Source: a virus
DNA length: 64,000 bases
Reading direction: 5' to 3' (one strand)
Virus record (IMG/VR): IMGVR_UViG_3300022744_000020
Span: 1-64,000 of that record
The position numbers were made by a program, and so were the translations under genes. This document shows positions 6,538 to 27,890 of this stretch, piece by piece (within the stretch, counting starts at the first letter, position 1; each line of letters opens with the position of its first letter). Under the pieces are notes generated by a model. That model saw only the letters and a program-made list of their open reading frames with translations. It had not been told where the DNA came from and made no database searches.

Positions 6538-6582
6538 TCCTCCTCCTGCAATAATCCAGTTTCTTTAATCAACATAACAAAG

Positions 6583-6611
6583 AGGAAGGATCCCCGATGG
6601 GGATCCTTCCT
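6583..6611 (+). terminator. Rho-independent terminator
   Basis: A perfect 13-bp stem (AGGAAGGATCCCC with its complement) with a 3-base loop, followed by GCTTCTTC and a run of ten or more T. It ends the operon whose last stop is at 6537. The portal gene runs in from the other strand and stops at 6629, so the T-run lies against its stop codon. Confidence 0.93.
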
Positions 6612-6628
6612 GCTTCTTCTTTTTTTTT

Positions 6629-9373: not shown

Positions 9374-9416
9374 TTGTTTCTCACTTGCCGCAGATGTGGA
9401 AGATGGAGCCTTTTAA
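9374..9416. promoter_or_regulatory. Very short divergent intergenic gap
   Basis: Only 43 bp lie between the portal start (minus strand) and the next gene (plus strand). Both ribosome binding sites must fit here, so at least one promoter must sit inside the opposing coding sequence. I see no recognisable -10/-35 pair. Confidence 0.4.
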
Positions 9417-11681
9417 ATGAATACTCGCTATCAGATCTATGTTCGAGACACGTTTCACCTGGTAGGCACCATGGGGATCTGTTTTGATCACTGCGCACTT
9501 GCAGTGAATAAGGGCATACAAATTCAAGACCCCAGCTACAGTATCCCGGACTCGTCCTTAGACGACCGGGCTAGCTGGAAGTATTATCAGAATATGGCCG
9601 GCCTACGTCATGAGACAGACCCGCTGATCACAATACCCTCACTCCAGACCGGGGAGTCAATTGAATTCTCAAAGAAATCTTTTCGAGATGATCCTGTAAC
9701 TAAGGCAGCCTACCGGCGAGGGACCATTCCGTATTACGAGCTCATCGGAGCTCACCCCGAAATGATTGAGTACATTCATGGGGTGATTTATGCGCCGGAT
9801 CCAAAATGGAGTTTCTTTACGACCCCCGATGGTGAGATCGTCGACACCACCGACTATTTAAGCTATCCGCTGGAGATCGTCAAAAAACCCAACGGGACGA
9901 TTCTGTATTTTGACTCAAACTACGTCGAAGAAAATGAATACCACTTGATTTTCGAGATGCAGAATTGGATTTACGATTATCTCCATCGTTGGGCTGTCTG
10001 GCCGTACGCCGTAGTTGATGATTTGTACGTGGCCGACGTTGTTGCGAAGCTGGCAATTTTGCTGGTTCCATACATCATCAATGCTCGACTGAGAAGATGC
10101 AAGACAAACGAAGTTCACAGCTTCCACATCAAACAGTACCTTGGATCGAAGGGTATCCCTGAAATCTATTTGGACGTGTTGGATAAGAAGCAGTCTCTTT
10201 TCCTGTATCGGAACCTGGATTACATTCGCACGCACGCAGGAAAGCGCGATGTGATGCTTTGGCTGATTGAAAACATCATGACCGCCAGAGGCTTACCGGT
10301 TTCTCAGTACGTCATCAAGCATCTGCTGACTGATTTCCGTTACGATGAAACACTGAAGGATCACGTCAGCCTGACGCCGACGCCATTCCTTCAGAAGAAA
10401 ACAATCGGAACCCCCGACGAAGTCTTTGTGAATGTGGGCTACACCCATCAGGCGATTCTGGAGAAGATGAACCAGAGAGCTCCTGGTAATCCCGGATTGC
10501 ACGTCAATGAGTTCGAAAAGCTCGACCGCGCTCTCTATGAATCGACAGCCAATACCCTGCAGACGAAGGTCTTGGAGTCTCGGTCCGACGACGTTCAAAC
10601 AACCACGCCGTATGGACTGGAAGAAGTGGCGATCAATGAGTGGTTGAGACTTTCAATTTCTGGGGAGTACAGCGTCAAGACCACGATTGCGATACCCAAC
10701 ATGAAAAATGAGGTATCACTCACGTCTAGAGAAGCAGCGTTTCTTTTTGGTTACTGCCTGATTAAACTCCACCAAGGATTCCAGTTAGATCCAGACGGAA
10801 AGATATACCCGTGGAGTAACTACTTTGACGTGAATGAGGATGGGACTCTGTGCGACCCGGCATTCCTTGTTTCCAGAGTGCTCAAGAAAGAAATCCCCAC
10901 TCTGGGATATTTGAAGACGCAAGTGCAAGAGAAGGTGCTGAGTGATTCGGAACTTGCCTTGAGCATTTCCGGGTACCCGATATTCACTTCGGCCAGAACA
11001 ACCCAAGAACTCATTGATTGGTCGAAGAAGGTGCACAACTTTGCCTGCAAGCAAAGACTGCTCGGGGCTCAGTTCTACACCCCGACAAGATACGGGATGT
11101 TTACTCTGGCGTGTACCAAATCGTGGAGGGATGAAATGATCTCCCTCCCAGGGTTTCATAGCTGGAGGGAAGACAGCGGCGTCAACCTAGAGAACTGCTC
11201 GGTAGAAACCCTTACAAACTTAGCTGCGTCTTTGGTGACTATTTTCGGGGGTTACAGCAACGATGAAGCTAACGAGATGAAGAAAGTGCAGAAGGCGATG
11301 ATCGCCATTATGCAGCGACTTCTGAGTTACTCGGTTCAGTTCATCTCAGACGAGGGGACGACGGACAACTTGGTCTTAGATCAAAGACCGCATCGTTACG
11401 GCACAGGCAAGTTGGACGCACAGCTCAGGTGTGGGGTTCCACTGAGTTTGGATGTGGTGGAGATCGCAACCACCGCAACCATTGATGCAAAGGCTGTCTG
11501 GAATAACTACACCCAGCATAAACCCGACTGCGTAACTCGCGCAACGATCTCGGTGGATTATGGGACGCTTCACCGTAGGGTTAGTGGTAAGGTAATTCAA
11601 ACCAATCCATCTAAATCGCCAAAGACAATTGTTATCCGATCGAGAATACCGCAAATCGAATTCACTGGGAATAATATTTAA
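9417..11681 (+). CDS. Virion-type structural protein, unknown family
   Basis: A 754-residue soluble protein with many Tyr and Trp residues, no signal peptide and no clear membrane span (LAILLVPYIINARL at ~215 is short and probably buried). I do not recognise the family. Its position beside the portal and in front of further structural-type genes fits a neck, baseplate or other virion component. The start codon follows a GATGGAGCC stretch that can serve as a ribosome binding site (GGAG, 9 bases upstream). The gene ends six bases before a possible terminator hairpin. Confidence 0.8.
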   Translation: MNTRYQIYVRDTFHLVGTMGICFDHCALAVNKGIQIQDPSYSIPDSSLDDRASWKYYQNMAGLRHETDPLITIPSLQTGESIEFSKKSFRDDPVTKAAYRRGTIPYYELIGAHPEMIEYIHGVIYAPDPKWSFFTTPDGEIVDTTDYLSYPLEIVKKPNGTILYFDSNYVEENEYHLIFEMQNWIYDYLHRWAVWPYAVVDDLYVADVVAKLAILLVPYIINARLRRCKTNEVHSFHIKQYLGSKGIPEIYLDVLDKKQSLFLYRNLDYIRTHAGKRDVMLWLIENIMTARGLPVSQYVIKHLLTDFRYDETLKDHVSLTPTPFLQKKTIGTPDEVFVNVGYTHQAILEKMNQRAPGNPGLHVNEFEKLDRALYESTANTLQTKVLESRSDDVQTTTPYGLEEVAINEWLRLSISGEYSVKTTIAIPNMKNEVSLTSREAAFLFGYCLIKLHQGFQLDPDGKIYPWSNYFDVNEDGTLCDPAFLVSRVLKKEIPTLGYLKTQVQEKVLSDSELALSISGYPIFTSARTTQELIDWSKKVHNFACKQRLLGAQFYTPTRYGMFTLACTKSWRDEMISLPGFHSWREDSGVNLENCSVETLTNLAASLVTIFGGYSNDEANEMKKVQKAMIAIMQRLLSYSVQFISDEGTTDNLVLDQRPHRYGTGKLDAQLRCGVPLSLDVVEIATTATIDAKAVWNNYTQHKPDCVTRATISVDYGTLHRRVSGKVIQTNPSKSPKTIVIRSRIPQIEFTGNNI

Positions 11682-11686
11682 TCTCA

Positions 11687-11716
11687 GGTGGGCTTTATCT
11701 TTTGATTAGGCCCACC
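11687..11716 (+). terminator. Possible weak terminator
   Basis: A 7-bp stem (GGTGGGC with GCCCACC) around a 16-base loop, followed by a T-rich stretch. It lies just after the stop at 11681 and before the start at 11744. It is weaker than the other hairpins of this window and may allow read-through. Confidence 0.45.
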
Positions 11717-11743
11717 CCTTCATTTCTTTTTGTTGAGACCGAC

Positions 11744-12595
11744 ATGGAAAATACCGTCCCTACCGACCTGCTGAGTGTCCTCATTGCGATGACGCTGTAC
11801 CGTCGGCCTTTCGTCGCACCTGCCTTCACCACGATCAATGAAAAGCTCGGCATCCAGTCGACCGCAGCACTTCCTCCGAACACGTACCCGGAGATCGGAT
11901 ATCTGATCATCGGTAACGGTGGACATCGCGCCGTTACCGGTACGAACGGCCTCAGCAAGAATTCTAATTATCAGCACGAGACTGAGAATTACGCACTGTT
12001 CAATCAGATCCCCTACGTTTTGCGTGATCCGGCGGATGATCTGACCCCGGAAGAGCGCCAACGCTTCCGACTGAGAAAGACCGTCGAAATCGATACCAAA
12101 TCCTACGTGGCCTACTATGGTCGCCGACTGGATCTGGCAAACTCCAACATCGTTCTCGAAAAACGAACCGTCAGCCCAGATGGGAAGGTGATCGACAAGA
12201 CCCCACTGGTGCCGCAGGCGAAGAATCTCTCCCCGACGCCGACAGTGCTCAGCAACACGGGTGTGAATGAGCTTGCCAACGTGATGCACTATTGCGGGAT
12301 TCGGATCACCATCTCTTTCACGGCGGCAGACGTTCAAGAGTTGATCAACGTCTCGAACATTCTCTACAAAGATCCTGGGTATGCCATCATCTCAGAAATG
12401 GGTCTGTGCTCAGGGATCGAGAAGGTTGTAACGGCTGCAACCCCCAGCGGCAACATCAACTACAACGAAGTCATCGGTTGCCAAATCATGACCCACATCA
12501 GCGGATCGACGCTGGACATGCAATCTTTCACTTCGGGCGGTTTCAACTTCGAACTCTACGGTGGTTCGGACAATCCGCAGTATCAGCTCGTCTGA
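11744..12595 (+). CDS. Structural-type protein, unknown family
   Basis: A 283-residue protein. I take the ATG at 11744 (MENTVPTDLL) because GAG lies seven bases upstream, whereas an in-frame TTG at 11702 falls inside a hairpin. It is rich in beta-prone and small residues, with no membrane span, and ends in a Gly/Phe/Asn-rich strand pattern (SFTSGGFNFELYGG) common in tail and baseplate proteins. I cannot name a family. It is followed directly by a terminator, so it forms its own transcription unit or ends the one starting at 9417. Confidence 0.8.
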   Translation: MENTVPTDLLSVLIAMTLYRRPFVAPAFTTINEKLGIQSTAALPPNTYPEIGYLIIGNGGHRAVTGTNGLSKNSNYQHETENYALFNQIPYVLRDPADDLTPEERQRFRLRKTVEIDTKSYVAYYGRRLDLANSNIVLEKRTVSPDGKVIDKTPLVPQAKNLSPTPTVLSNTGVNELANVMHYCGIRITISFTAADVQELINVSNILYKDPGYAIISEMGLCSGIEKVVTAATPSGNINYNEVIGCQIMTHISGSTLDMQSFTSGGFNFELYGGSDNPQYQLV

Positions 12596-12600
12596 TGAAA

Positions 12601-12629
12601 GAGAGCCGCCCCTTAAAAGGGCGGCTCTC
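12601..12629 (+). terminator. Rho-independent terminator
   Basis: A perfect 11-bp stem (GAGAGCCGCCC with its complement) with a 7-base loop, followed by GAGTTTTAAG. It separates the gene ending at 12595 from the resolvase gene. Confidence 0.8.
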
Positions 12630-12652
12630 GAGTTTTAAGTGAGGATATGGAG

Positions 12653-13225
12653 ATGACTCCAGAGCAAGAAGACCGGGCACTCCTGATCGTCGGAATAGAT
12701 CCAGGAAGAGCCAATACGGGGTACTGTAAGCTGTATTACGACGCTGAGACTTTGGACATCGTCGGGATCATTCCGCGCACGATTACCGAGAAGGATCTCT
12801 ACGTTCCGCAGTATGACGTTTTGAGGTTCGGTATCAGTCAAGCCACGATGTTTTCTCATCGCGAGAATTTTGTGAATTTATTCAAGATTGACAAACCGAG
12901 CTTTATTTGTTGTGAATCTCCGTTTTTCAATCGTGCCACGCCCTCGGCATTTCGGTCTTTGAGTTATTTCTTGGCGAACCTGTTTATCGCGGTCGAAAAG
13001 GCGTTGACTTCTACCCCTTTGGATCTGGTAGATCCTCCGACTGCAAAGAAAGCGATAGGGGCTAAAGGAAATGCCAAGAAAGAAGACGTGTTGAGAGCAA
13101 TGGAAAAGATACCAGAGCTGGTAGAAAATTGCGAGACGACCCTGAAGGATCTAGACGAACACTCTTTGGACTCGATGGCGATTGCCTATTACCGACTCCA
13201 GATGCTTCGCAACCCTTCCATTTAA
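12653..13225 (+). CDS. RuvC-like Holliday junction resolvase
   Basis: A 190-residue member of the RuvC/RNase H-fold nuclease family, which cuts four-way DNA junctions symmetrically; in a phage it clears branched DNA before packaging. Visible features are strand 1 with GIDPGRANTGY (D16), strand 4 with ICCESPFF (E88), the VDPPTAKKAIGAKGNAKKEDV segment typical of the RuvC DNA-binding loop, and the C-terminal DEHSLDSMAIAY (H170, D173), together forming the acidic metal site. The length is close to bacterial RuvC (about 170). The ATG at 12653 is preferred over 12647: GAGGA at 12641-12645 is 7 bases from the former but only 1 from the latter. The gene follows a terminator and leads into small membrane-protein genes. 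Confidence 0.9.
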   Translation: MTPEQEDRALLIVGIDPGRANTGYCKLYYDAETLDIVGIIPRTITEKDLYVPQYDVLRFGISQATMFSHRENFVNLFKIDKPSFICCESPFFNRATPSAFRSLSYFLANLFIAVEKALTSTPLDLVDPPTAKKAIGAKGNAKKEDVLRAMEKIPELVENCETTLKDLDEHSLDSMAIAYYRLQMLRNPSI

Positions 13226-14923: not shown

Positions 14924-14934
14924 ATAGAAAGCAT

Positions 14935-14970
14935 GACTACCACCGCCGGGATCGCCTGGCGGTGGTAGTC
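14935..14970 (+). terminator. Rho-independent terminator
   Basis: A perfect 13-bp stem (GACTACCACCGCC with its complement) around a 10-base loop, followed by GTTGTTTATTTT. It ends the operon of the resolvase and membrane-protein genes. A second, 7-bp hairpin (15005-15030) stands ~38 bases before the next start and may be part of that gene's leader. Confidence 0.92.
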
Positions 14971-15067
14971 GTTGTTTATTTTGTGATCAGTCAAAACACC
15001 ACGCACCCGCTCTTTTATTTTGTAGCGGGTTATCTGCATACATTTCAATCAACGAGGTTAAAGAACT

Positions 15068-16510
15068 ATGTCCTACTCTTTGGATGTATTGGGCAAGACG
15101 CTCCAGAATAAAGTCATCGGGGAGAAACACACCCTCACCCCTAAGACGAATCCGGACGATACGCTTTGGATCATTTTAGAGAACTCCCCCTTCCACGAGT
15201 GGGAGTTCTCTATGAAGTACACGCCGAAGACCGGACCATCCCGAATTCTTCAGTATGGTCTTGACTTCGACTTCTGCTTCCAGTTCCTGAAGGCAAGTCA
15301 GTCCTGCAATTTGCCCATCTACGCAGGTGTGAAGTTTGTGGATGTCACCCTCGACGGTGAAGTCCTGGTGAACTATCAAGCATTCGGGTCCGACTACTCG
15401 CTCACCTCCGCGCAGAGAACTCAGGCTTACAGCACGATCAAAACCGATCCGAGTTACATGACCTGGGAGTCTGCGGTTAAGGCACTTGGGTTGACCATGG
15501 AATGGTCACTTGTGGTGGATCATCCGTGGTCAAGCGTGAATGTCGATGTTGTTCGTCGCGCTAAGGAAGAGCTGGAAAAAGCGGGTCTGGTGGTTCATCT
15601 GAGACCTGAGTTTCTCCCGACCCCGGAGCAAGCAAAATTCATTCCTTCCGCCGATGAATTGGGTTTGGGGTTGGTTGAAAATTACCCCATGGCCACAGTC
15701 GCTGAATCGGTTTTGGGTAATTCGGAAAAGCTCTACCTGAATCCCAAAGGGGCAAACGCATTGGTGGTGGACCGAGTGCGCACGACCTTGGCTGAAATGG
15801 GTTATCAACTACCTGTCAAGTTTGCGGCCGGAATCACCTTCAACGACACGAAAAAGACAGTCGTCTACGACGATGTGGTTTACGCTGCACGTCAATCACA
15901 AGTCCCTTTCGTTACCAACGGTTTGTTCGATGCGAAGAAGTTTGTCGCGATCAATTCCAATTCTCCTGCTCACTGGATCAACTTTCCGACCTTCAAAATC
16001 GGAGAATCTCCAGCGCGGAATGTGTTGAATCAGGTGGTTTTGGATATCCCTCAAGACTTCACTCACCGAGTACGCGCCCGAGCGATTCTCAACGACACCG
16101 AAGAGCTGGTGTATGGCATCGACTTCTTCATCGACAATCGCAAGCTCAGCGTCGAATATCCTCTGAGGTCCGGCGATCGGATTCGTTTGTCCGTCAAATC
16201 GACGGCATCAAAAACGGCTGATGATCGAAATTATTACAAAGTGTTCAAAGTCGCCAGTGGGGTCAAAGACTTCCAACTCAGCGACTTTTATTACCTCACG
16301 GTGGATGACCTTCGGGTCACTGTCAATGACTGGTACGTCCTGGATCCCGATCAGGACTACACCATCAACACTTCCGGGGTGATGAGCATTGTCTACCCGC
16401 TCGAGCTCGGAGACATCATTGAAGTGGAGTCTCTGGACAACATCCCCGAAATGGGTAAACAGCAAATGAGATCAATTTTGTTTGCCGTTGGCAGCACGAT
16501 TGTGGCCTAA
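15068..16510 (+). CDS. Tail fibre-associated structural protein
   Basis: A 480-residue protein, mostly beta-rich. The first ~120 residues carry a domain also seen in the proteins at 24173-25756 and 25777-27828: a NPDD or GxFF segment, a strand with SMKYT/SVSMM/SLKLW, a xxDY or xDF turn, then a strand ending in NYQAFG / SYQCLG / ARYQAVG. A second repeat-like region near residues 330-470 has two copies of a beta-hairpin with YGIDFFIDN... and LDPDQDYTINTSG (x-D-Y-x-I), typical of fibre or baseplate proteins. There is no membrane span or enzyme motif. It lies 26 bases before the giant fibre gene and probably forms the fibre base or connector with it. Confidence 0.75.
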   Translation: MSYSLDVLGKTLQNKVIGEKHTLTPKTNPDDTLWIILENSPFHEWEFSMKYTPKTGPSRILQYGLDFDFCFQFLKASQSCNLPIYAGVKFVDVTLDGEVLVNYQAFGSDYSLTSAQRTQAYSTIKTDPSYMTWESAVKALGLTMEWSLVVDHPWSSVNVDVVRRAKEELEKAGLVVHLRPEFLPTPEQAKFIPSADELGLGLVENYPMATVAESVLGNSEKLYLNPKGANALVVDRVRTTLAEMGYQLPVKFAAGITFNDTKKTVVYDDVVYAARQSQVPFVTNGLFDAKKFVAINSNSPAHWINFPTFKIGESPARNVLNQVVLDIPQDFTHRVRARAILNDTEELVYGIDFFIDNRKLSVEYPLRSGDRIRLSVKSTASKTADDRNYYKVFKVASGVKDFQLSDFYYLTVDDLRVTVNDWYVLDPDQDYTINTSGVMSIVYPLELGDIIEVESLDNIPEMGKQQMRSILFAVGSTIVA

Positions 16511-16536
16511 TTTTGTTTTTATAGCAGGAAACGTTC

Positions 16537-19500
16537 ATGAACAATCTTCGTACCCGTAACGGGGAACCGAACAACTTCGAAGACGGCCTGGCCGTCCGGG
16601 GTATTTTGCTGGATGGCTCGGAGGGTGCCAAAGTCGTCGCCATGAAGATTCAGGAGACGGATCCCGTTCCGACCAGTCTCTTCGATTGGGTTCGAGCAAC
16701 CATGCTCTCCCTGAAGACGCTGTCTGACGCTGGTGGTGGTAAGGTCGCCGATCAGCCACTGACGGACAGCAGCGACAAGGCCGCCAACACGAAGTTCGTG
16801 CAATTGCTGGCGGCAGAGATGCTGCTGAAGATTGCCGGCGGCACCAACCTTCCGGTTGGGTTGGACAGCCTGGCCGAATTCGCCACCGCCATGGGGAACG
16901 ACCCCCAATTCCTCACGAAAATCAATGAAGCCTTGGCCACCAAGGTGAGTATTGAGGATCTGCGGTACACGACGGCTAACTCCTGCGTGGCCGGTGGTGG
17001 TCCGAACGCCATCTCTGGTGCGTTCATTCCTGCCATCAAAACGCTGGTGGGTGAGCCGGTCATCTATGTTCGATCGCTCGGCGCAAACACGGTCCCGGAT
17101 CCGACCTTCACTCCGAACCTCGGGGTGATCTCGGCTGATGTTATCGTCAAGAGCAACAACCAACCTCTTTTGCCTGGCGACATTCCTGGGGCTAACTACC
17201 CCATGATGCTGCGCCGGGATTCTTCGCTCCAGAAATGGGTGCTGATGAATCCTGCAGGTGCTTCGAATCTGCCTTGGGCGTCCAACGACGTCACCACGGC
17301 AGGTCTGTCCACCAGCACGGTTGTGACTCCGGCTTCGCTGAAGGCAACACTGGCCCAGGTTCTGGGAACGGCTCCGGACGTTCTGAATAGCTTTGCGGAA
17401 ATCGCAGCGGCACTGAAGAACGACCCCCATGCGATCGACACCATCCTGGCTAAGATCGCGACGCTGGCCCCTACGCAGTCTCCGGTTTTCACCGATTCTC
17501 CGAAGGCCCCGACCCAGCCGCTGACCTCGAACGACGCGACGCTGGCAACGACGGCATTCGTTTGGGCAGCCATCACGCAAGCACTCACGAACAACCTGAA
17601 AGCTTCGACCCAGACCATCTCCGGCATCGTTCGGCTGTGTACCAATCCCGAAGTCCTGGCGATGCTCAACGACACGGCGGCCGTCACGCCTGCCACGTTG
17701 CGCTACTGGTTTGACAATCTCCCAGCCGCCACCACGACTGAGCGCTCCATCGTTCGGTTTGCGAGTTCGGATGAGTCTTTTACTGGGCTGCTGGAGGACG
17801 TGGCGGTCAACCCGAAGGGAATGCGCTTCGCCATTGACCAAGCGCTTTCCCAGTTTGTTGGTGGCCTCACGGCACCGACCACACCGGCACTGACTGGTTC
17901 TTCCACGGTGGTGGTGGGTCTGAGCTACACGCTGACCCTGACGTCCCAACCAACCACTGGTGGGGCAACAGTCACGTCGTTTGACCTCACCCTGAACAAC
18001 GGCGCGGTACAAACACTTCCGGCTACTGCCGGATCTGCCACCTACACCTGGACGAGTTCTGGAACAGTCGGTCAGACGGTGACGTTCCGTGTCAAGGCCA
18101 AGGACTCCAACAACAAGGTGTCCGCAGAAGCCAGCAAAGTTGTCACGTTGTCCACGATCACGGTCAATCCGGTGGTGGTGGTTTCTCCGACTGCAGATCA
18201 GTTGGCCCGCCCGCTGGTCGGAACGTTCGTCGTCAACGCAATCTCCTTCTCGGGGGGAACGTCGGCTCATCTGAACACCGATTGGGATCTGCGTACGGCT
18301 GCTAACGGTGGCGGTACCTCAGTCTGGTCGTCACTGAACGATGCGGTCAACAAGACTTCGATCGCTTACAGTTTGGCATCGGTGGTCACCCCTGGGACCA
18401 AATATTACCTGCGAGTTCGCCAGAAGACGCAGAACTATGGGGACTCCGGCTGGACGGAAGTGGGCTTCACCTACATCGCTCGCCCTGGAGCTCCGACGCT
18501 CTCTGGAGCTGGATCGGTTATCTCCGGGCAGACCTACACCCTGGCGATGTCTTCGTCCAGTCTGGAAACGGGAGCCACGGCATCTCAATTCCTGATCAGC
18601 GTCAATGGTGGGGCCGAAGTGCAGATCACGGCCACTTCGAACTCGGGAACCTACACCTGGACGAGCAGCGGTGTCGCTGGAACCACGGCTTCCCTGGCTG
18701 TTCGCGTCAAGGACTCCAACGGACTCTACTCGGATCCTTCGACCAAGACCGTTTCCCTCACGACGGTCAGCATCAATACGCCGACGTTCATTTCTCCGGC
18801 CAATGGCGCCACCGGGGTGTCTGTTAGCCCCACGCTGACGGCTTCGAACATGGCCACCACGGGTGGTGCGGATACGTTCGCCAACGCAGACTGGGAAGCG
18901 CGCACGGCATCTGGTGGCGGAGGTACTCTGCTGTGGTCCTCTCCGGCGGACGCGGTCAACAAAACCACGATCACGATCCCGGTCGGCAAGCTCGGCTCGA
19001 ACGCGCTGGTTTACTTCCGAGTGCGCCATCGCGGTGCTGTGTACGGCGTATCTGACTGGGCTGAAATCTCGGTCACGACGATGGGTGCGCCAGGTGCTCC
19101 GGCGCTGTCTGGTGCTGCTGGTTTCCGCCCTGGCGACAACTACACGCTGACGATGTCGGCGAACCCGGTGTCGCCAGCCACTGCAATCACTTCGTTCTCG
19201 GTGGTGGTTGGTGCGGCTGCCCCAGTGGTTGTTCCGGCGGTGAGCAATTCGGCCAACTGGACTTACCTGGGGACTTCGAACTCTTCGATTGCTCCTGGGC
19301 AGACCGTGACGATCAGCGTGACGGCGCTGGATAACGCCAGCCTCGTTTCGGCTGCCGGCACGAAGACCCTCACGTCTTCGAAGCCCAACGTACCGACGTA
19401 CTCTGGAGCCACGACGGGACTATCCATCAGCCCGAGCTTTGCTGTCTCAGCTATGACGATGGCTGGTCTTGCCTCGACGCACTTGTCTTCGGATTGGGAG

Positions 19501-22500
19501 CTGAGAACGGCACCATCCGGGGCCGGAACGTTGGCGGCAAGCGTCTACGACTCCACCACGGCAAAGACAGCCTGGACTCCGACGGCTGCCTCGATGGCCA
19601 ACGGCACGACGTACTACCTGCGTAATCGTCAGAAGTCTCAGGACTTTGGCGCTTCCGACTGGATGGAAATTCCCGTCACGACCGCGGCAAAGCCCGCATC
19701 GGCCACGCTGTCTGGAGCCAACACCCACTACCTGGGTCAGCCCTACAGTCTGACGGTCACGGCCTCGGCGACCTCTCCGGCCACATCCATCGTCTCTTTC
19801 GATGTAGTTGTTGACGGCGGCGCGCCCACCACGATCCCGGCAACACTCAGTGCAGGGGTTTATACCGGTACCTACGTCTGGCCCGTCTCGGCCATGACCA
19901 ACAAGGTTGCTGGTCAGACGGCTGTTTTCAGTGTCACGCTGAAGGACAACACGGGTGCAGTCTCCAACCCAGCTTCGAAGTCCGTGGGAATTGCTTCGGC
20001 CGCGATTGCGACCCCGAGCTTCATTTACCCGAGTGCGTCACAGACGGGCCTGGGACTGACGTTCACCGCGACGGCCTCGGACTTCTCGATTTCTGGTGGC
20101 GGTGCTGTTCACGCAAGCACTGATTGGAAGATTGTCAAACAGTCCGACAACGTCACCACGATCGAAGAGTTGGGTCAAACCGGAACGAAGCTGAAGACCT
20201 ATTCAGTTCCTCCTGGTTTCCTGGCTCCGAACACGACGTACATTCTCCAGGTCAAATACAACTCGGATACCTCTGGCTCTTCGGCTTGGGGACAGGTCGT
20301 CTTCACGACGGCTCCAGCGGGTGCTCCTTCGATCGTTTCCCCGACGAACGGTCAAGTGGGGGTGATCTTGAACGTGGTGGCGTACTCGAGCACGTTCAGC
20401 TCGAGTGGTGGCAACACACACGCGAAGTCCTCGTGGGAGTTGCGCACAGCCGCTAACGGTGGCGGTGTTCTGGTGGCCTCCCTGGCCGATTCGGCAACTT
20501 CTCTGACTCAGTGGACGATCTCGGTTGGTCTGAGCCCGAGCATTCAGTATTACCTGCGAGTGAAGTACACCGGAAGCCTTTCGGGGGATTCGGCGTGGGG
20601 TGAATCGACCTTTGTTACGGGTACCGCTGAAGCGCCAGTGATCTCCACCCCGGCCAACAACGCCACCAAGGTGATCCTGACTCCGACGTTCACGATCGCT
20701 GATCTGGTAGCTCTGGTCAGTGGCGATACCCACCTGAAGACGGAGTGGGAAGTTCGCACTGCAGCCGCAGGAGCTGGTACGTTGGTGACCTCGGGAACGA
20801 CCACGGCAACCTCGCTCAAGTCGTGGACGACGCCAAACTTGACCTCGGTCAATACGGTATTCTACATGCGGGTTCGAATCCAGACCCAAATGTTCGGATA
20901 TTCGAACTGGACTGAAATCAAGTTCACGACTGGGTATATTGCCGCTCCGACGATTCAAGCCCCGACCTCGGGTGCCACGGGTTTGCTGCCCAAGACGCTG
21001 ACGATCTCACTGGCTCCGTTCTCGGCACAGGGCGTGGACACCCACGCGTCAACCACCTACGCCATTCACACGGCGGCCAATCAAGGTGGTTCCCTGGTGA
21101 AGGAATTTACCAGCCCGACGGCACTTCTTGGAACGACGCTGTCGAACTTTGACATCGGTGGGGTGATTGGCAATCTGGCCAACGGGACCACCTATTGGCT
21201 CAGTGTGGCCATGACGGGTGCGGTGTTCGGTAAAAGCGCCTGGACAAACATCGCTTTCACGACGGGCACTCCTTCGGATCTGACGTGGGTGAATCCTGCG
21301 ACTGATTTGATGACAAACTTCCCAACGATGGGTCCGTCTCAGGTTCAACCTCAGGCACCTAACGGGACAGCGGACACGGTAGACCTTTACGAGGTCACCT
21401 ACGGAATTCTGCCTCCGCGTGGTGGCACCCCATCGATCACCGTCACGGATACCAGTTTGCTGCCAAACTACACGCCGGCTGAAGGAGCAATCCAACAATC
21501 GCGCATGTATGAAATTCGGTACCGAGCAAAATACGCTCAGTACGGGTACACGAACTGGATCTCTCGGCAAGTGACCATGGCCAGCATCACACTGCCTGTG
21601 TTCAGCACTCCCACGGCTGGAACAATCAGCACGGCAACTCCGACGCTGTCCATTCCCGCAGGTGTATCGAGCTATCCGGGATCCACACACACGAAGACGG
21701 ATTGGGAAATCCGAACCCAAGCATCTGGAGCCGGATCGCCAATCTGGACTTCCCCGAACGATGCGGTCAACAAGACTTCGATCACGGTTCCTGCCGGTGT
21801 CATGGTGGATGGCACGCAATACTACATTCGCTCGAGAGTCTACATGACTTCGATGGGGTGGAGTGCGTGGGGTGAAGTGATTGTCACAACTTCACTGATT
21901 GCTGCAGGAGCAACGACGCAATGGTCTGGCGCTATTGCCGATGCCTCCCATGGGTTTTCCACCGCTTTGGATGATCTCGGGCAATACCTGCTCATGGGTG
22001 CACCCCATCAGGACGGAGTCACTGCAAACGAAGGCGCTGCGAAAATCACATATCGCGCCACCTTAGGGACCACTGGATTTTCCTTCCAGAAGGATTTTAC
22101 CAATCCCGGGGCTTCAGCCAATGGTGGTTTGTACGGAAGTTCAGTTGACCTCGATTCCACAGCTACGCGTGCCGTAATTGGTTGCCCGCTTGGGTTGGTG
22201 GTTTATGGGGCTGAGGGATTTGTTGAGGTTTGGGTGAGGTCGGGAACGGCCTGGACTAAAGAAGCCACTCTCAAAGCTTCGACACCCATGGGTTACGAAT
22301 ACTTCGGCAACGATGTTTCGATCTCAGCGGATGGTTCCGTGATCGCGGTTGGATGTCGTGCGTACAACCACACTTCGGACAACGTCGGGGCGGTCTATAT
22401 CTTCCAAAGAACCGGGACTTCTTGGGCACAAACGGCGTTGTTGATGGCTAGTGACTGGTCCAGCAATGCTGAATTCGGGATCTCGGTCGATTTGTCTGAC

Positions 22501-23070
22501 GACGGATCAGTTTTAGTTGTTGGCGCACATTTGGCCAACACCGCAAATGGTTGGGGCAGCGGTGCTGCGTACGTTTTCCGAAAGACTTCCGGATCTTGGG
22601 TTGAAGAGGCCAAAATCCTCCCAGCTACGGTGACGGGATCAAACTACACGGGATGCGACGTAACCATTTCCGGGAACGGAACCACCATTGCCATCGGGGC
22701 TTTCTATCAAGCAACCACGGGATCGGCATACGTTTACACCGTCAGCGGATCTACGTGGACTCAACAAGCCCGACTCGTCAGTGGCGCCAACGATGGGCAT
22801 TTTGGAAATTCGCTGAGCTTGTCGAATGACGGTAACGTTCTCGCCGTAGGTAACTCCACTGCAGGGGCAGCCCCAACGGTTGGCGCTGGGTACGTTTTCA
22901 AGAGAGCCGGAACAGTTTGGTCTCTTGACCGAACGATAAAGTATCCGACAAGTTCCTTGGATGCTGGATACTCTTGCAATCTGAGCGGCGATGGAAATTA
23001 CGTGGCTGTCGGATCCCCCAATCAAGGAACTGGTGGGCAATTTGGCATGATCCGTGTGGTCAAGACTTAA
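16537..23070 (+). CDS. Giant modular tail fibre protein with Ig/FN3-like array and FG-GAP beta-propeller
   Basis: A 2177-residue fibre. Residues ~1-440 carry phage fibre repeats of the type KVADQPLTDSSDKAANTKFV and APTQPLTSNDATLATTAFV, usual in trimeric tail fibres. Residues ~444-1785 are thirteen Ig/FN3-like modules of two kinds. Kind A (~95 residues) has an L.SG...Y.LT...F...V.G pattern; kind B (~105) has THxxTDWExRTA..GGG and YYLRVRxxxxxYGxSxW.E. The order is A-B four times, then five B. Residues ~1790-2177 hold FG-GAP-like blades (FGNDVSISADGSVIAVG, FGISVDLSDDGSVLVVG, FGNSLSLSNDGNVLAVG), expected to fold as a beta-propeller at the distal tip and bind the host surface. The start has AGGAAA at good spacing. 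The gene is followed by a small fibre-associated gene. Receptor binding is an inference from architecture. Confidence 0.9.
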   Translation: MNNLRTRNGEPNNFEDGLAVRGILLDGSEGAKVVAMKIQETDPVPTSLFDWVRATMLSLKTLSDAGGGKVADQPLTDSSDKAANTKFVQLLAAEMLLKIAGGTNLPVGLDSLAEFATAMGNDPQFLTKINEALATKVSIEDLRYTTANSCVAGGGPNAISGAFIPAIKTLVGEPVIYVRSLGANTVPDPTFTPNLGVISADVIVKSNNQPLLPGDIPGANYPMMLRRDSSLQKWVLMNPAGASNLPWASNDVTTAGLSTSTVVTPASLKATLAQVLGTAPDVLNSFAEIAAALKNDPHAIDTILAKIATLAPTQSPVFTDSPKAPTQPLTSNDATLATTAFVWAAITQALTNNLKASTQTISGIVRLCTNPEVLAMLNDTAAVTPATLRYWFDNLPAATTTERSIVRFASSDESFTGLLEDVAVNPKGMRFAIDQALSQFVGGLTAPTTPALTGSSTVVVGLSYTLTLTSQPTTGGATVTSFDLTLNNGAVQTLPATAGSATYTWTSSGTVGQTVTFRVKAKDSNNKVSAEASKVVTLSTITVNPVVVVSPTADQLARPLVGTFVVNAISFSGGTSAHLNTDWDLRTAANGGGTSVWSSLNDAVNKTSIAYSLASVVTPGTKYYLRVRQKTQNYGDSGWTEVGFTYIARPGAPTLSGAGSVISGQTYTLAMSSSSLETGATASQFLISVNGGAEVQITATSNSGTYTWTSSGVAGTTASLAVRVKDSNGLYSDPSTKTVSLTTVSINTPTFISPANGATGVSVSPTLTASNMATTGGADTFANADWEARTASGGGGTLLWSSPADAVNKTTITIPVGKLGSNALVYFRVRHRGAVYGVSDWAEISVTTMGAPGAPALSGAAGFRPGDNYTLTMSANPVSPATAITSFSVVVGAAAPVVVPAVSNSANWTYLGTSNSSIAPGQTVTISVTALDNASLVSAAGTKTLTSSKPNVPTYSGATTGLSISPSFAVSAMTMAGLASTHLSSDWELRTAPSGAGTLAASVYDSTTAKTAWTPTAASMANGTTYYLRNRQKSQDFGASDWMEIPVTTAAKPASATLSGANTHYLGQPYSLTVTASATSPATSIVSFDVVVDGGAPTTIPATLSAGVYTGTYVWPVSAMTNKVAGQTAVFSVTLKDNTGAVSNPASKSVGIASAAIATPSFIYPSASQTGLGLTFTATASDFSISGGGAVHASTDWKIVKQSDNVTTIEELGQTGTKLKTYSVPPGFLAPNTTYILQVKYNSDTSGSSAWGQVVFTTAPAGAPSIVSPTNGQVGVILNVVAYSSTFSSSGGNTHAKSSWELRTAANGGGVLVASLADSATSLTQWTISVGLSPSIQYYLRVKYTGSLSGDSAWGESTFVTGTAEAPVISTPANNATKVILTPTFTIADLVALVSGDTHLKTEWEVRTAAAGAGTLVTSGTTTATSLKSWTTPNLTSVNTVFYMRVRIQTQMFGYSNWTEIKFTTGYIAAPTIQAPTSGATGLLPKTLTISLAPFSAQGVDTHASTTYAIHTAANQGGSLVKEFTSPTALLGTTLSNFDIGGVIGNLANGTTYWLSVAMTGAVFGKSAWTNIAFTTGTPSDLTWVNPATDLMTNFPTMGPSQVQPQAPNGTADTVDLYEVTYGILPPRGGTPSITVTDTSLLPNYTPAEGAIQQSRMYEIRYRAKYAQYGYTNWISRQVTMASITLPVFSTPTAGTISTATPTLSIPAGVSSYPGSTHTKTDWEIRTQASGAGSPIWTSPNDAVNKTSITVPAGVMVDGTQYYIRSRVYMTSMGWSAWGEVIVTTSLIAAGATTQWSGAIADASHGFSTALDDLGQYLLMGAPHQDGVTANEGAAKITYRATLGTTGFSFQKDFTNPGASANGGLYGSSVDLDSTATRAVIGCPLGLVVYGAEGFVEVWVRSGTAWTKEATLKASTPMGYEYFGNDVSISADGSVIAVGCRAYNHTSDNVGAVYIFQRTGTSWAQTALLMASDWSSNAEFGISVDLSDDGSVLVVGAHLANTANGWGSGAAYVFRKTSGSWVEEAKILPATVTGSNYTGCDVTISGNGTTIAIGAFYQATTGSAYVYTVSGSTWTQQARLVSGANDGHFGNSLSLSNDGNVLAVGNSTAGAAPTVGAGYVFKRAGTVWSLDRTIKYPTSSLDAGYSCNLSGDGNYVAVGSPNQGTGGQFGMIRVVKT
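17865..21896 (+). repeat. Array of 13 Ig/FN3-like modules in the fibre gene
   Basis: Tandem protein modules of ~95-110 residues with an alternating A-B then B-only order. At DNA level most copies have diverged, but short blocks are identical, for example 28 bases at 18336-18363 and 21756-21783, and ACCTACACCTGGACGAG in two A modules. This marks duplication, or gene conversion between distant modules. Confidence 0.85.
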
Positions 23071-23086: not shown

Positions 23087-23674
23087 ATGGACACTCATGT
23101 TTACGCACGAGTGCTCGATGGGGAAGTCCGTGACTTCCCCATTTCAAAAGAGCACATTCAAACCCAGGTACTCCCCATGGAGTGGTTCAAGCTTTGTCAA
23201 ATCGACGAAGTTCCCACTCTTGAGATTGACGAGCGCTGCTCCCCGATCTTCATCGTTGAGGAAGACGTTGTGGTCGTACGGTGGAAAATTCAGCGTTTGA
23301 CCGATACTGAATTCGTTGGTCGAATCTGGATGAATCGATATCCGGAACTTCGGCAGGAAGCCAAACTTCCAACGGAGTACGAAGCTCACCGGCTTAAGCG
23401 GATCCTTCGCAGTCGAGTTCTTCGTGTCTTGGATGAAAAGGCCCGAGAAGAGGACTACGCGGATTTCATCGAAGTCATCAGTTTCTCGCGATCCAGCAAT
23501 CCGGATCGTGCAGCACTCGCCAAGAAATTCTACGAAGATCGAGACAAGTTGTTCGATTACGTGGACAAAATCCTGGTGGATTCCATGGTGACTGAGAAGA
23601 GAATTCTTCCTCGGAGTCCTCAAGAGTTCGATTCGTGGATTAAGCAAATGATCCAGACGGAGAGCGAAAAATGA
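23087..23674 (+). CDS. Possible tail fibre assembly/chaperone protein
   Basis: A 195-residue protein. The N-terminal part is beta-rich (YARVLDGEVRDFPIS, a phrase also common in phage fibre-assembly proteins), and the C-terminal part is charged and helical (EYEAHRLKRILRSRVLRVLDEKARE). It starts 16 bases after the giant fibre gene, the usual place for a fibre chaperone that helps trimerisation. I do not claim a family match; the call rests on position and the N-terminal pattern. The start has AGAGAAATC upstream. The stop overlaps the next start (ATGA at 23671-23674). Confidence 0.6.
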   Translation: MDTHVYARVLDGEVRDFPISKEHIQTQVLPMEWFKLCQIDEVPTLEIDERCSPIFIVEEDVVVVRWKIQRLTDTEFVGRIWMNRYPELRQEAKLPTEYEAHRLKRILRSRVLRVLDEKAREEDYADFIEVISFSRSSNPDRAALAKKFYEDRDKLFDYVDKILVDSMVTEKRILPRSPQEFDSWIKQMIQTESEK

Positions 23675-24120
23675 GTCTGAGCATCGCGGAGACCTGGAGA
23701 TACAAACTTCAGGAGGATTTTCATCACGAATACTCGAAGGACTTCCCGGAAATGGAAGTCAATCAGGATTGGTTGAAAATCAACGGTCGAAAGGTTTTCA
23801 TCCCCAAAGGCTATGCCTGGAACGGTTGTAATCCTTCGTATCGGATTCGATTCAGTCGACTTGGGATCGACTGGTGGATCGGCACGCCTGACGGTAGTCT
23901 GGATGAAACTGGACGACCGATCACGAGCAATGCCTCTGTTCTTCACGATGCACTATGTCAGTACCGAGAAGTGCTGACGAAAGTAACCAAGCGAATGTCT
24001 GTGGAGCTGTTTGCTGAACAACTCCGACTCAGTGGAGCACACCCGCTGATTTGTAAAAACTACCCCAAGGTGGTGAGCATGTTCGGCCCTCAAGACTGGT
24101 TGGGTGATCGCCAGAGCTGA
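23671..24120 (+). CDS. DUF1353-like protein
   Basis: A 149-residue protein. It shows the pattern FIPKGYAWNGCNPSY near residue 50 and SVLHDALCQYR near residue 90, matching the core of the DUF1353 family (V-P-x-G-F-x-(T/W)-D-x-x-S-x-P and A-x-x-H-D-x-L-Y), small phage and prophage proteins of unknown function. The His-Asp pair in SVLHDALCQY is the most conserved feature. It is coupled by a four-base overlap to the gene before it, and its operon ends at a strong bidirectional hairpin. Role unknown; in many phages such genes lie near tail fibre or lysis genes. Confidence 0.65.
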   Translation: MSLSIAETWRYKLQEDFHHEYSKDFPEMEVNQDWLKINGRKVFIPKGYAWNGCNPSYRIRFSRLGIDWWIGTPDGSLDETGRPITSNASVLHDALCQYREVLTKVTKRMSVELFAEQLRLSGAHPLICKNYPKVVSMFGPQDWLGDRQS

Positions 24121-24129
24121 TGCATGATA

Positions 24130-24161
24130 GACTAGGATGCCCCGCAAGGGGCATCCTAGTC
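24130..24161. terminator. Bidirectional terminator
   Basis: A perfect 14-bp stem (GACTAGGATGCCCC with its complement) closed by a GCAA tetraloop. The plus side is followed by TTGTTTTGTTG. It sits between the convergent genes ending at 24120 and 24173 and should serve both. Confidence 0.93.
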
Positions 24162-24172
24162 TTGTTTTGTTG

Positions 24173-25756
24173 TCAGAACTTTGCAGTCAGGCTTCTTACT
24201 TTTTCAGCCCCCGGACGCTCCACTTGAATCTGATCGGATCCCGCATCCACTCGACGAATGTCAAACGAATGAGAGAATGAAACAATGAAGTCTTTCTTGA
24301 TTTGCTCCACTGTTTTTCCATTCAAGCCGAAGATCAGATTCAGCTCCGTTCCTCGTGGCATCTGAAAACGAACACCCTTTCGGGAATTCACCGACGCAAT
24401 TCCAGTCACGTTGAAGTCCGCTCTCATGTCAAACAAGAAAGAACAAATTCTCTCGGAAGTTGCTTTCTTTTCGGTCGTGGTTTTACCAATCAGTACCGGA
24501 TCTTGATCCTCTCCCAACACTTGGTAATAAGTACCAGCCGGAGTGGTCGTGTAGTTGAGCACCTCCAACTCAGTAGAGGTAGCGTAAACCTCTTGAGGGG
24601 CCCGACTGGCAACTCCCAGGACCAAAGGCGATACCGTTACGAACGCATCAGAGCAGTAGCTTCCTTGCCCGTCTACTCGGGAATCCACCAGCATGAATCC
24701 CAGCCTGACTCCAGCATACCCACCCACCGGAGATTTGATGAGTTGAAGACGTGCGACGAAGGCGAAGTCGTGAATCCCTGCTGTTTCAAACTGGGTCCGC
24801 GTCAAGAACATCGACTGCCCGTTGTTTGTGACAACGTACGCGTCATAGTTGTCGACGCTGACAACTTGGTCTTTCCCAAACTGAAGCGTTTGATAGGGAG
24901 AGCCTTGGGCTGGGGTCGTGATGAATGCTGAAGACTGAGCCAAGACAGTCGTGTAGCCGCTCAGCAGTTGCTTGGCATCTTTCTCCGCATTGGTGTCGCG
25001 TGCCGAGATCGCTTCAAGCATGTACTGAAGTTTCTGCAGCTCTTCAATACCGTCACCTGAAGACTGATGCGCCTGGACCAACTTCAGCATGGCCTGCTCG
25101 GTGGCTCTTAGTGCGTTGGTTGCACGAACAAGAGCCACCTGAGACAGATCGCTTTGTTCGGTATCGACCATCGCCGTCAATTCAGAGAAGCGTTGATCGA
25201 TGTACCGATACAGAGCGTTGTGGCTGACTTGATCGCCCATCAGAATTGACTTTCGAAGCATCTCCAAGGAGGCGCAAAGAAATTCGTAACCGATGGTGTT
25301 GTCTTGGGTCTGGTAATGCGTGACCGGATCCACCTCGCTTGGGGGATTGGCGATGTTCTCCCAACTGATCGGCCGATCGTCCTGCAGCAGTTCATTCAGC
25401 AGCGTCTGAATGAAGGCATAGTTGTGCTCGTAGCCATCTCCCAAACACTGGTAACTCAAAATCACCCGAGAATTAACCCGAGGATTGATCACCACGATCG
25501 TGGAGCAAACGTCTTGCTCGCAAAGCATCGAAGGAATGGCAACCGTGTCGATACAAACGTAGTCAACGTCCTTGGTGAGTTCTTTCTGAGTCACCGCATC
25601 CATCATAGATACAGATTTTGAAAAGAACAAACCGTACTTAGGTGTAACCGATCGATATTTGCGGGATTCCAGGTCGTGGAATTCTCCTTCGACACGGTTG
25701 TTTTGATTTTTACCGGAAGTGTCGAGCAAGTAGCGATAAGGCTTTAACGGATTCAT
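24173..25756 (-). CDS. Tail fibre or tail structural protein
   Basis: A 527-residue protein, last of a four-gene minus-strand cluster. Residues ~30-125 carry the N-terminal domain shared with the proteins at 15068 and 25777 (LFFSKSVSMM ... KDVDYVC ... VILSYQCLGDGYEHNY). Next comes a helical region ~150-280 (QRFSELTAMVD, NALRATEQAMLKLVQ), probably a coiled trimeric stalk, and a beta-rich C-terminal domain of ~220 residues starting near SPYQTLQFGKDQVV. This layout fits a short tail fibre or fibre-connector. A GGAG ribosome binding site lies at good distance. There is no enzyme motif. Confidence 0.7.
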   Translation of the reverse strand: MNPLKPYRYLLDTSGKNQNNRVEGEFHDLESRKYRSVTPKYGLFFSKSVSMMDAVTQKELTKDVDYVCIDTVAIPSMLCEQDVCSTIVVINPRVNSRVILSYQCLGDGYEHNYAFIQTLLNELLQDDRPISWENIANPPSEVDPVTHYQTQDNTIGYEFLCASLEMLRKSILMGDQVSHNALYRYIDQRFSELTAMVDTEQSDLSQVALVRATNALRATEQAMLKLVQAHQSSGDGIEELQKLQYMLEAISARDTNAEKDAKQLLSGYTTVLAQSSAFITTPAQGSPYQTLQFGKDQVVSVDNYDAYVVTNNGQSMFLTRTQFETAGIHDFAFVARLQLIKSPVGGYAGVRLGFMLVDSRVDGQGSYCSDAFVTVSPLVLGVASRAPQEVYATSTELEVLNYTTTPAGTYYQVLGEDQDPVLIGKTTTEKKATSERICSFLFDMRADFNVTGIASVNSRKGVRFQMPRGTELNLIFGLNGKTVEQIKKDFIVSFSHSFDIRRVDAGSDQIQVERPGAEKVRSLTAKF

Positions 25757-25776: not shown

Positions 25777-27828
25777 TCAAGATTTCGGGTAGTGGAAGAT
25801 TTCAGCGTCGGCTTCACGCATGACGCGGATATAGTCGCAGCCGAATGAGCTGGAATTTAAGCATCTCAATTCCAACACTACCGTACTGCTATTCGCTTTG
25901 AAGGCGTACATCAGCACTTTGTTTGTTTCTCCTGCCTTGATGGAGTATTCCGGGCTGATTCTTTTCCCATTCATCAAGACAACCAAATCGGGTGCAGCAT
26001 CTGCTTTAAAATACAGAGCCGACTCCAATAAATAACTGGTCCCAGGAACCAGCTTGAGCGTGGCCTTCCAGAAATTCTTGTCCGGATTAGCGGCGGCATT
26101 GACTACCAGCAGATTTCCGTTCTTACTCACGTAAGAATTGATCACTTGAACGTTTGGAGTGATCCAGCCTTTTTGTTTTGGATCCGTTAGATACTTCAGA
26201 GTTTCTTTTCTGAGAGAAGCGATGCTGTTATCCTTCACACCTCTTGGATCTAGCTCGTATTCGGTTTCAAACTGGCTCAGTCTGGCATCAAAGTCTGGAT
26301 TGGCGTTCTCATAGACACGGACACCGCATTTTTGCTGAACGTACTGCATCACCAAATCCATCTCGTACAGAGACAGACGACGAGAATACGCCAGGATCAT
26401 CAGCAACCTCCCGGACTGGGTGGTCTGAGGATCACCTATTGAATTAAAGCGGTGACTCTTAGCTTCCAATTTAGCCGTGTGAACCAACCCGTTTTCAGCT
26501 TGATTCAGATTCTCACCGTAGTTGCATCGAGCATAACCACCCAATGCGCTGTTAACTGCCACCACGTTCACATGGACTGGCAAGTTGTCGGCGTTATTGG
26601 TGTAGTTGACCCAGTCAACCCACCCAGTCTTGGTTTCTTTCAACTCCATTCCAATCCGGTGATCCACATCCAGATCCACCCGGGATTCAGGGCCTCTCAG
26701 GACAGTGAGTTTTTCCGGGTTGTATCTTTCGTCACGACTGCAGACGCAGATCAGAGTGTATTCCTCACCCAGAATAACATCCTCCCCTTTACTCAGACCC
26801 AAATACCCTCCGGTGAGTTCAACGGAGTTGGCTCGAACATACGGGTTGATCTCGTATTTGGCAACAGGGGAGAAAAACTCTCGACCCTTTGGACTTTGAT
26901 CTCGAACCGATAGGCCGGTCCCTACTGGAATGCATGTCTTTTCGTTGGTAAAGTCCAGAAAAAGTTCGAGGTCAGTCAAAAAGAAAGGAGTCACAACCGG
27001 GGTCGGTGAAATTGTTTTTCGATACCGCGCGAGTTCAATGCCGGTGCAGCAGTACAGTGCATTGGCGTAGTTGATTTCTCGCTGATTCAAGTACGCTACC
27101 TGTTCTCTGGTTCTTTTGAGAACTTGAGCGGTCAGCTCTTTTGTCTTTGAGATCCCAGCATTGATGAACGCCAGTCTCCGATTTACTTCATCCGTGATTG
27201 CCGTGATCTGCGCTTCTCGGAAAGAACTCCGACTGCTCATCAAGGTGTGAAAACTCGATTCTTTGAAATTGATCGAGTTGAAAATTTCCAGGTGTTCGTT
27301 TGATTTGTCGATGCCAATCGCATCGGCAATTCTTTTCAAGCAGTCAAGCAGCGTCGAATCGATGAGGACTGTCGAGACGTGATGAGTATGTGCTTTAGGG
27401 ACATACTCCACCGGGTGATTCAGCGTTGCGTAATCTACCTGACCCGCACTGGCTGTTGCCCGAGCGTATTCCTCCAGGGTCTTTTCGACGTTCGGTCTTT
27501 CTGGCCCACCTACCGCTTGGTAGCGCGCAAACAACTTGTACGGCAAGCCAGAGTCCGACACCAGAAAAACATTGCAGACTTCTTGTTCGAGGTAATCGGT
27601 CAGATCAACATCCATTCCCCCGATGGTGAACTGGCTAGGCAGGAGATACGTCCTTACTCCTTCAGCGGTTTCCGTCCACAACTTCAAGGACTTGACAAAG
27701 AAGGTACCCCACTTCAGCATGCCCAGGCGTTGACCCATCGAATAGATTTGAACTTCTTCTTTTTCGATCAAATTGCTCGACGCCGTACCTGTCGGATCAA
27801 AGGGTAAATAGATAGAAACTTCTTCCAT
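25777..27828 (-). CDS. Tail fibre-like protein with LamG-type central domain (possible)
   Basis: A 683-residue protein. I choose the ATG at 27828 because GGAG stands six bases upstream; the longer frame would begin with a TTG at 27840 that overlaps this GGAG. The N-terminal ~120 residues carry the shared domain (WGTFFVKSLKLW ... ARYQAVGGPE). Residues ~170-275 are helical. At ~285-480 a beta-rich region (FFLTDLELFLDFTNEKTCIPVG ... GGYLGLSKGEDVILGEEYTLICVCS ... LLMILAYSRRLSLYEMD) resembles a concanavalin/LamG-type fold with its two-sheet strand pattern. A further beta domain follows. This suits a receptor-contacting fibre. The LamG reading is tentative. It lies 20 bp before the next gene of the cluster. 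Confidence 0.65.
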   Translation of the reverse strand: MEEVSIYLPFDPTGTASSNLIEKEEVQIYSMGQRLGMLKWGTFFVKSLKLWTETAEGVRTYLLPSQFTIGGMDVDLTDYLEQEVCNVFLVSDSGLPYKLFARYQAVGGPERPNVEKTLEEYARATASAGQVDYATLNHPVEYVPKAHTHHVSTVLIDSTLLDCLKRIADAIGIDKSNEHLEIFNSINFKESSFHTLMSSRSSFREAQITAITDEVNRRLAFINAGISKTKELTAQVLKRTREQVAYLNQREINYANALYCCTGIELARYRKTISPTPVVTPFFLTDLELFLDFTNEKTCIPVGTGLSVRDQSPKGREFFSPVAKYEINPYVRANSVELTGGYLGLSKGEDVILGEEYTLICVCSRDERYNPEKLTVLRGPESRVDLDVDHRIGMELKETKTGWVDWVNYTNNADNLPVHVNVVAVNSALGGYARCNYGENLNQAENGLVHTAKLEAKSHRFNSIGDPQTTQSGRLLMILAYSRRLSLYEMDLVMQYVQQKCGVRVYENANPDFDARLSQFETEYELDPRGVKDNSIASLRKETLKYLTDPKQKGWITPNVQVINSYVSKNGNLLVVNAAANPDKNFWKATLKLVPGTSYLLESALYFKADAAPDLVVLMNGKRISPEYSIKAGETNKVLMYAFKANSSTVVLELRCLNSSSFGCDYIRVMREADAEIFHYPKS

Positions 27829-27890
27829 TTGGGACTCCAAAAATGATTATTAATGCTCGGCTGTCGCCTCAAACCATCTGAGATAAAAGC

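Follow-up and report, generated by a model that had tools for sequence, protein, structure and literature searches.

The locus analysed here raises the question of what a 2177-residue phage protein with a long array of Ig/FN3-like modules and an FG-GAP propeller at its end is for, and which of its parts would meet the host. The window, meaning the whole stretch of DNA analysed, is 64,000 bases long and represents bases 1-64000 of a virus record of 270,383 bases in total. As placed by its genes, the source record is a phiKZ-like jumbo phage: it carries multi-subunit RNA polymerase genes as well as homologues of phiKZ virion proteins, and the RNA polymerase subunit at 55695 was closest to those of Burkholderia phage FLC9 and Xanthomonas phage LucasX, with an identity of only 34%.

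The fibre gene and its neighbourhood

The fibre gene occupies 16537..23070 on the plus strand as one ORF of 2177 codons for amino acids, with an ATG start and a ribosome-binding-like AGGAAA immediately 5' of it. Its N-terminal tail-fibre region (residues 1-443, 16537..17865, +) matched the tail fiber family phrog_23820 with an E-value of 5.3e-11; furthermore, residues 255-385 matched P1/P2-type tail fibres with 34-38% identity, and residues 146-240 resembled a protein of Rhodoferax phage P26218. The product is thus of the tail-fibre type as judged by N-terminal matches to tail-fibre families, and both the exact reading frame and the fibre identity given in the original prediction were borne out. 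The gp131-type anchor, phrog_2163, was matched in three neighbouring proteins and not in the 2177-residue fibre. Given the absence of this shared N-terminal anchor domain, the fibre appears to lie outside the phiKZ gp131-135 family (phrog_2163/13857). A 583-aa ORF runs antisense to the fibre gene at 16519-18270 (-), and most probably arose as a side effect of codon bias.

The fibre gene is the second in a run of four genes starting at 15068, 16537, 23087 and 23671, with a strong terminator-like hairpin on either side (14933..14972, 18 pairs, before the unit, and 24129..24162, 15 pairs, after it, both +). The other large gene of the unit, located upstream (15068..16510, +), encodes a fibre/baseplate protein homologous to phiKZ gp131-135 with the phrog_2163 N-terminus. 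Downstream of the fibre gene, a 195-aa product (23087..23674, +) had no family match in any library tried, and from its position and look it could be a fibre assembly factor. The last gene (23671..24120, +; 149 aa) carries the PHROG label tail assembly chaperone (phrog_1158) and showed a weak DUF1353-like match. Just downstream of the unit, two further phiKZ gp131-135-type fibre proteins are encoded on the opposite strand (24176-25756 and 25780-27840, both -). These two and the upstream homologue are near neighbours of the fibre gene, and a fourth gp131-135-type match was located elsewhere in the record, at 126918-127610. The same phage also encodes a giant tail protein of 3268 aa (44075-53881, -), which contains an SLT transglycosylase domain and gave tail-fibre/tape-measure matches.

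The array of Ig/FN3-like modules

By module scan and alignment, 13 modules of about 100 residues each were found between the N-terminal region and the propeller, in the order A-B-A-B-A-B-A-B-B-B-B-B-B, that is, four A-B pairs followed by five more B modules. Specifically, the first three pairs, all on the plus strand, comprise A1 (residues 444-543, 17866..18165) and B1 (544-650, 18166..18486), A2 (647-746, 18475..18774) and B2 (747-852, 18775..19092), and A3 (851-948, 19087..19380) and B3 (949-1053, 19381..19695). They are followed by A4 (1053-1157, 19693..20007, +) and by B4 to B9 (20008..21891, +), i.e., the B module of the fourth pair and the five additional ones, at residues 1158-1260, 1261-1365, 1366-1470, 1471-1576, 1577-1675 and 1676-1785. 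Each module was also scored with a leave-one-out HMM; 200 shuffles of the same residues reached at most 15 bits, and the module scores were 52-102 bits except for the degenerate B8 (21265-21561, +), the sole weak module, with 13.6 bits. The count of 13 and the module order, both predicted from the start, are therefore supported by scan, alignment and leave-one-out HMMs alike.

An AlphaFold2 model of A1-B1 gave two all-beta domains with a mean pLDDT of 84, whose nearest folds in the PDB were FN3, Ig and PKD domains, including those of phage lambda and T5 tail proteins. This beta-sandwich model agrees with the Ig/FN3-like nature originally proposed for the modules; in Pfam, Ig_Rha78A_N matched the array below its cut-off only. 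Pairwise protein identity among the modules was 14-42%, and no tandem repeat was found in the array at the DNA level, indicating that the array is old and showing no sign of recent copy-number slippage that would have changed its length. On the same two grounds, recent module duplication was ruled out. B1 and B9 share 28 identical bases (18336-18363 and 21756-21783), which exceeds the expectation from the rest of the array and may reflect gene conversion.

B modules are also found in other fibres. A search with the consensus B module returned three viral loci, and the matches to two of them, L067 and L068, had E-values of 3e-27 and 1e-26, respectively. L067 is a contig of 225 kb on which two fibres encoded side by side begin with phiKZ gp131-type N-termini (phrog_2163) and continue with B modules and C-termini of other kinds. 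In L068, the fibre of a P2-like phage carries a B module, with a weak Lcl_C match after it; a weak Lcl_C match was likewise seen at the C-terminus of the L067 ORF at 4784-6928. As in the window's fibre, the B modules of these proteins have a fibre anchor on one side and a C-terminal tip on the other, whereas the proteins have one or two B modules only and their C-termini are not propellers. Within the window's fibre gene, GC3 was 0.68-0.71 in the N-terminus and array and dropped to 0.53 in the propeller. Parts of such fibres appear to have been shuffled as units.

The C-terminal propeller and its relatives

The C-terminus of the fibre (residues 1787-2177, with blades from 1803; 21895..23067, +) matched Pfam FG-GAP_2 (PF14312) with an E-value of 6.8e-30. 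Four stretches were above threshold, and the whole-protein score was 103.5 bits, compared with a gathering cut-off of 23. Internal alignment resolved seven blades, the last of which ends exactly at the C-terminus. In leave-one-out tests each blade scored 15-53 bits and beat its own shuffles, blade 2 modestly (21.3 vs 15.7). AlphaFold2 modelling of residues 1787-2177 with 18 sequences gave a mean pLDDT of 86.5 and a pTM of 0.90, and the 27 modelled strands form six four-strand blades and one three-strand blade; the closing strand of the last blade was not seen in the model, and residues 1787-1799 were of low confidence. The C-terminus is thus predicted with high confidence to be a seven-bladed beta-propeller. 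The fold of the last 400 residues was the point on which the original prediction was open to refutation, and examined in silico it came out as the propeller foreseen.

The best PDB matches of the propeller model were integrin alpha heads (E 5.5e-16, TM about 0.7), and a profile from the propeller alignment found integrins in the PDB by sequence as well; a PDB sequence search with the single propeller as query returned antibody matches at chance level only. Like the FG-GAP propeller of the integrin alpha-chain, the fibre propeller has a seven-bladed FG-GAP-type fold; however, identity is about 17%, and the fibre domain is viral, C-terminal and devoid of repeated Ca-binding DxDxDG loops, a search for which gave one loose, partial match, DLSDDG at residue 1985. 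Since these loops are not conserved, the fold is shared with integrins while the metal sites are not. Close fold matches of the propeller were also seen in large viruses that infect algae or amoebae.

The B-C and D-A loops of a propeller share one face, and in integrins that face binds ligand. When 26 aligned tips were mapped onto the AlphaFold2 strands, mean column entropy was 2.29 bits in the B-C loops and 2.08 in the D-A loops, compared with 1.44 in A-B and 0.51 in C-D. The B-C/D-A face is so far the strongest lead towards a binding surface, although the variability is suggestive and not conclusive, because any long surface loop varies to some degree.

Relatives of the propeller were collected with the FG-GAP repeat protein of Vibrio phage nt-1 (AGN30308) as query. 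This protein belongs to the same Pfam family, has a C-terminal propeller and shows 34% identity over 93% of the fibre propeller; it differs in having 402 aa only, with a very short N-terminus and no Ig array, and nt-1 belongs to a different phage group, the Straboviridae. The query returned 53 viral loci; for about two thirds of them the match spans the propeller, and for the others it falls mainly on the short N-terminus. Most propeller-family loci come from short metagenomic contigs for which no host is proven. With a blade profile built from the window's fibre, 49 ORFs with at least five blades were found, and 31 were non-redundant at 85%, including the window's own fibre. In 28 of these 31 proteins, no more than about 50 residues separate the propeller from the C-terminus; the other three are a multi-propeller protein of 2515 aa (L033) and the bacterial-looking proteins of L036 and L039. 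The N-termini of the relatives differ widely, and some match tail-fibre families. Tandem paralogous propeller genes, often two to five, were present in six loci (L006, L007, L008, L031, L033 and L034), and in L009 a run of propeller genes comes after capsid genes. No relatives were found when viral contigs were searched with the propeller by itself, the N-terminal region or the whole array, or when genome contigs were searched with the array; queries of this kind extend to close relatives only.

Recognisable relatives were found in 4 of 50,697 phage records, representing three distinct phages. FG-GAP_2 tips are rare in cultured phages and recurrent in metagenomic viruses. The tip had been called unusual; this stands for cultured phages and does not stand more generally, given that phiKZ gp131 also ends in a propeller and that FG-GAP_2 tips recur in viral contigs. 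In the text of openly licensed PMC papers, searches combining FG-GAP with phage or tail terms found no description of such tips, which may have gone largely unnoticed because few cultured phages carry them.

Possible roles of the propeller

We consider it probable (roughly 72%) that the product of this gene serves the phiKZ-like jumbo phage as a long fibre for recognising its host, composed of a segmented stalk with the propeller as receptor-binding tip. The N-terminal ~440 residues would attach the fibre to the baseplate region, perhaps via the neighbouring gp131-type protein, and the 13 Ig/FN3-like modules would form the stalk; allowing about 4 nm for each module, its full extension would come to somewhere around 50 nm. 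The C-terminal seven-bladed propeller would then bind the receptor through its B-C and D-A loops, as suggested by integrin analogy and the pattern of variability, and the most likely ligand would be a surface glycan. The fibre would accordingly be expected in the virion. A receptor-binding tip, as originally proposed, is kept as the best interpretation in view of the predicted fold, the tail-fibre matches of the N-terminus, the gp131-135-type neighbours, the C-terminal propellers of the relatives, their differing N-termini and tandem genes, the variable face, and the mosaic make-up suggested by GC3 and by the B modules of other fibres. On the other side stand the missing gp131-type anchor, the short contigs without proven hosts that supply most of the family, the use of the nt-1 protein as query for the 31-protein set, and the fold matches in algal and amoebal viruses.

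If the propeller were instead a structural or protein-docking joint to another fibre or the baseplate, recognition would fall to other proteins, such as the gp131-type neighbours. The three gp131-type proteins next door and the fourth elsewhere in the record are indeed candidates for that task, and proteins with many different functions contain FG-GAP_2 propellers, the bacterial-looking ones above among them. However, the extreme C-terminal position on differing N-termini argues against a joint, and one face of the propeller is hypervariable, whereas a docking surface would be conserved; we regard this role as unlikely. An enzyme trimming surface polysaccharide would have precedents in the endosialidases of K1F and phi92, which are propeller-fold phage tailspike enzymes (PMC4901313), but FG-GAP_2 was the only propeller family matched, the best PDB matches were integrins and not glycosidases, and no catalytic family was matched in Pfam or NCBIfam, making an enzymatic tip very improbable.

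The main contact might also be made by the Ig/FN3-like modules, acting as weak sugar-binding beads along the arm. Ig-like domains of phage tails are commonly proposed to be weak surface binders, and the array gave sub-threshold matches to Ig_Rha78A_N, CBM31 and CBM_56. The CBM matches were at chance level (E 0.08-0.7), however, and the B modules are common to fibres with different tips, which fits a stalk; there is little chance that the modules play this part.

The receptor-binding reading of the propeller can be compared with known phage proteins. The phiKZ protein gp131 has at its C-terminus a seven-bladed propeller (PDB 4GBF) for which a receptor-binding role was suggested, not confirmed (PMC4901313). 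Like gp131, which is a baseplate-periphery protein, the fibre in the window belongs to a phiKZ-type phage and has a seven-bladed C-terminal propeller, and its gene lies next to gp131-135-type genes; in contrast, gp131 has 771 aa, its own anchor domain and no Ig array. Kinship of the two propellers was looked for by sequence comparison, which detected no similarity between them; in addition, the 50 best PDB fold matches of the fibre propeller were mostly integrins and did not include 4GBF. Because the type of neighbourhood and the blade number are shared while the sequence and anchor are not, the fibre probably works like a propeller-tipped receptor-binding protein outside the gp131 family. A propeller was also proposed as the receptor-binding domain of Gp45 of S. 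aureus phage phi11 (PMC4901313), which is unlike the fibre in that its propeller is five-bladed and central, its stem is a helical bundle and its host is Gram-positive.

More broadly, C-terminal FG-GAP_2 tips in tandem fibre genes form a widespread and apparently undescribed family. We give about even odds to the wider proposal that C-terminal seven-bladed FG-GAP_2 propellers constitute a large undescribed class of exchangeable receptor-binding tips in tailed phages, often arranged as tandem cassettes of two to five paralogous fibre genes and bearing a hypervariable B-C/D-A face, and that one such tip is mounted here on a jumbo-phage fibre via a reusable Ig-module stalk. If so, viruses would use the scaffold of the animal integrin head as an exchangeable host-recognition tip, the variable face would tell where to look for specificity, and the tandem sets of propeller genes would offer a handle on the host range of the uncultured viruses that carry them.

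Individual loci showed further features. In L006, L007, L008 and L034, two to five fibre-like genes stand in tandem, and most of them end in an FG-GAP_2 propeller; the ORFs of L034 are located at 236-2146, 2169-4160, 4182-6137, 6159-8360 and 8379-9917. In Sinorhizobium phage Phosso (L004), a gene at 4642-13125 annotated only as hypothetical had 28 FG-GAP_2 stretches over the 2828 residues that were read, corresponding to several successive propellers.
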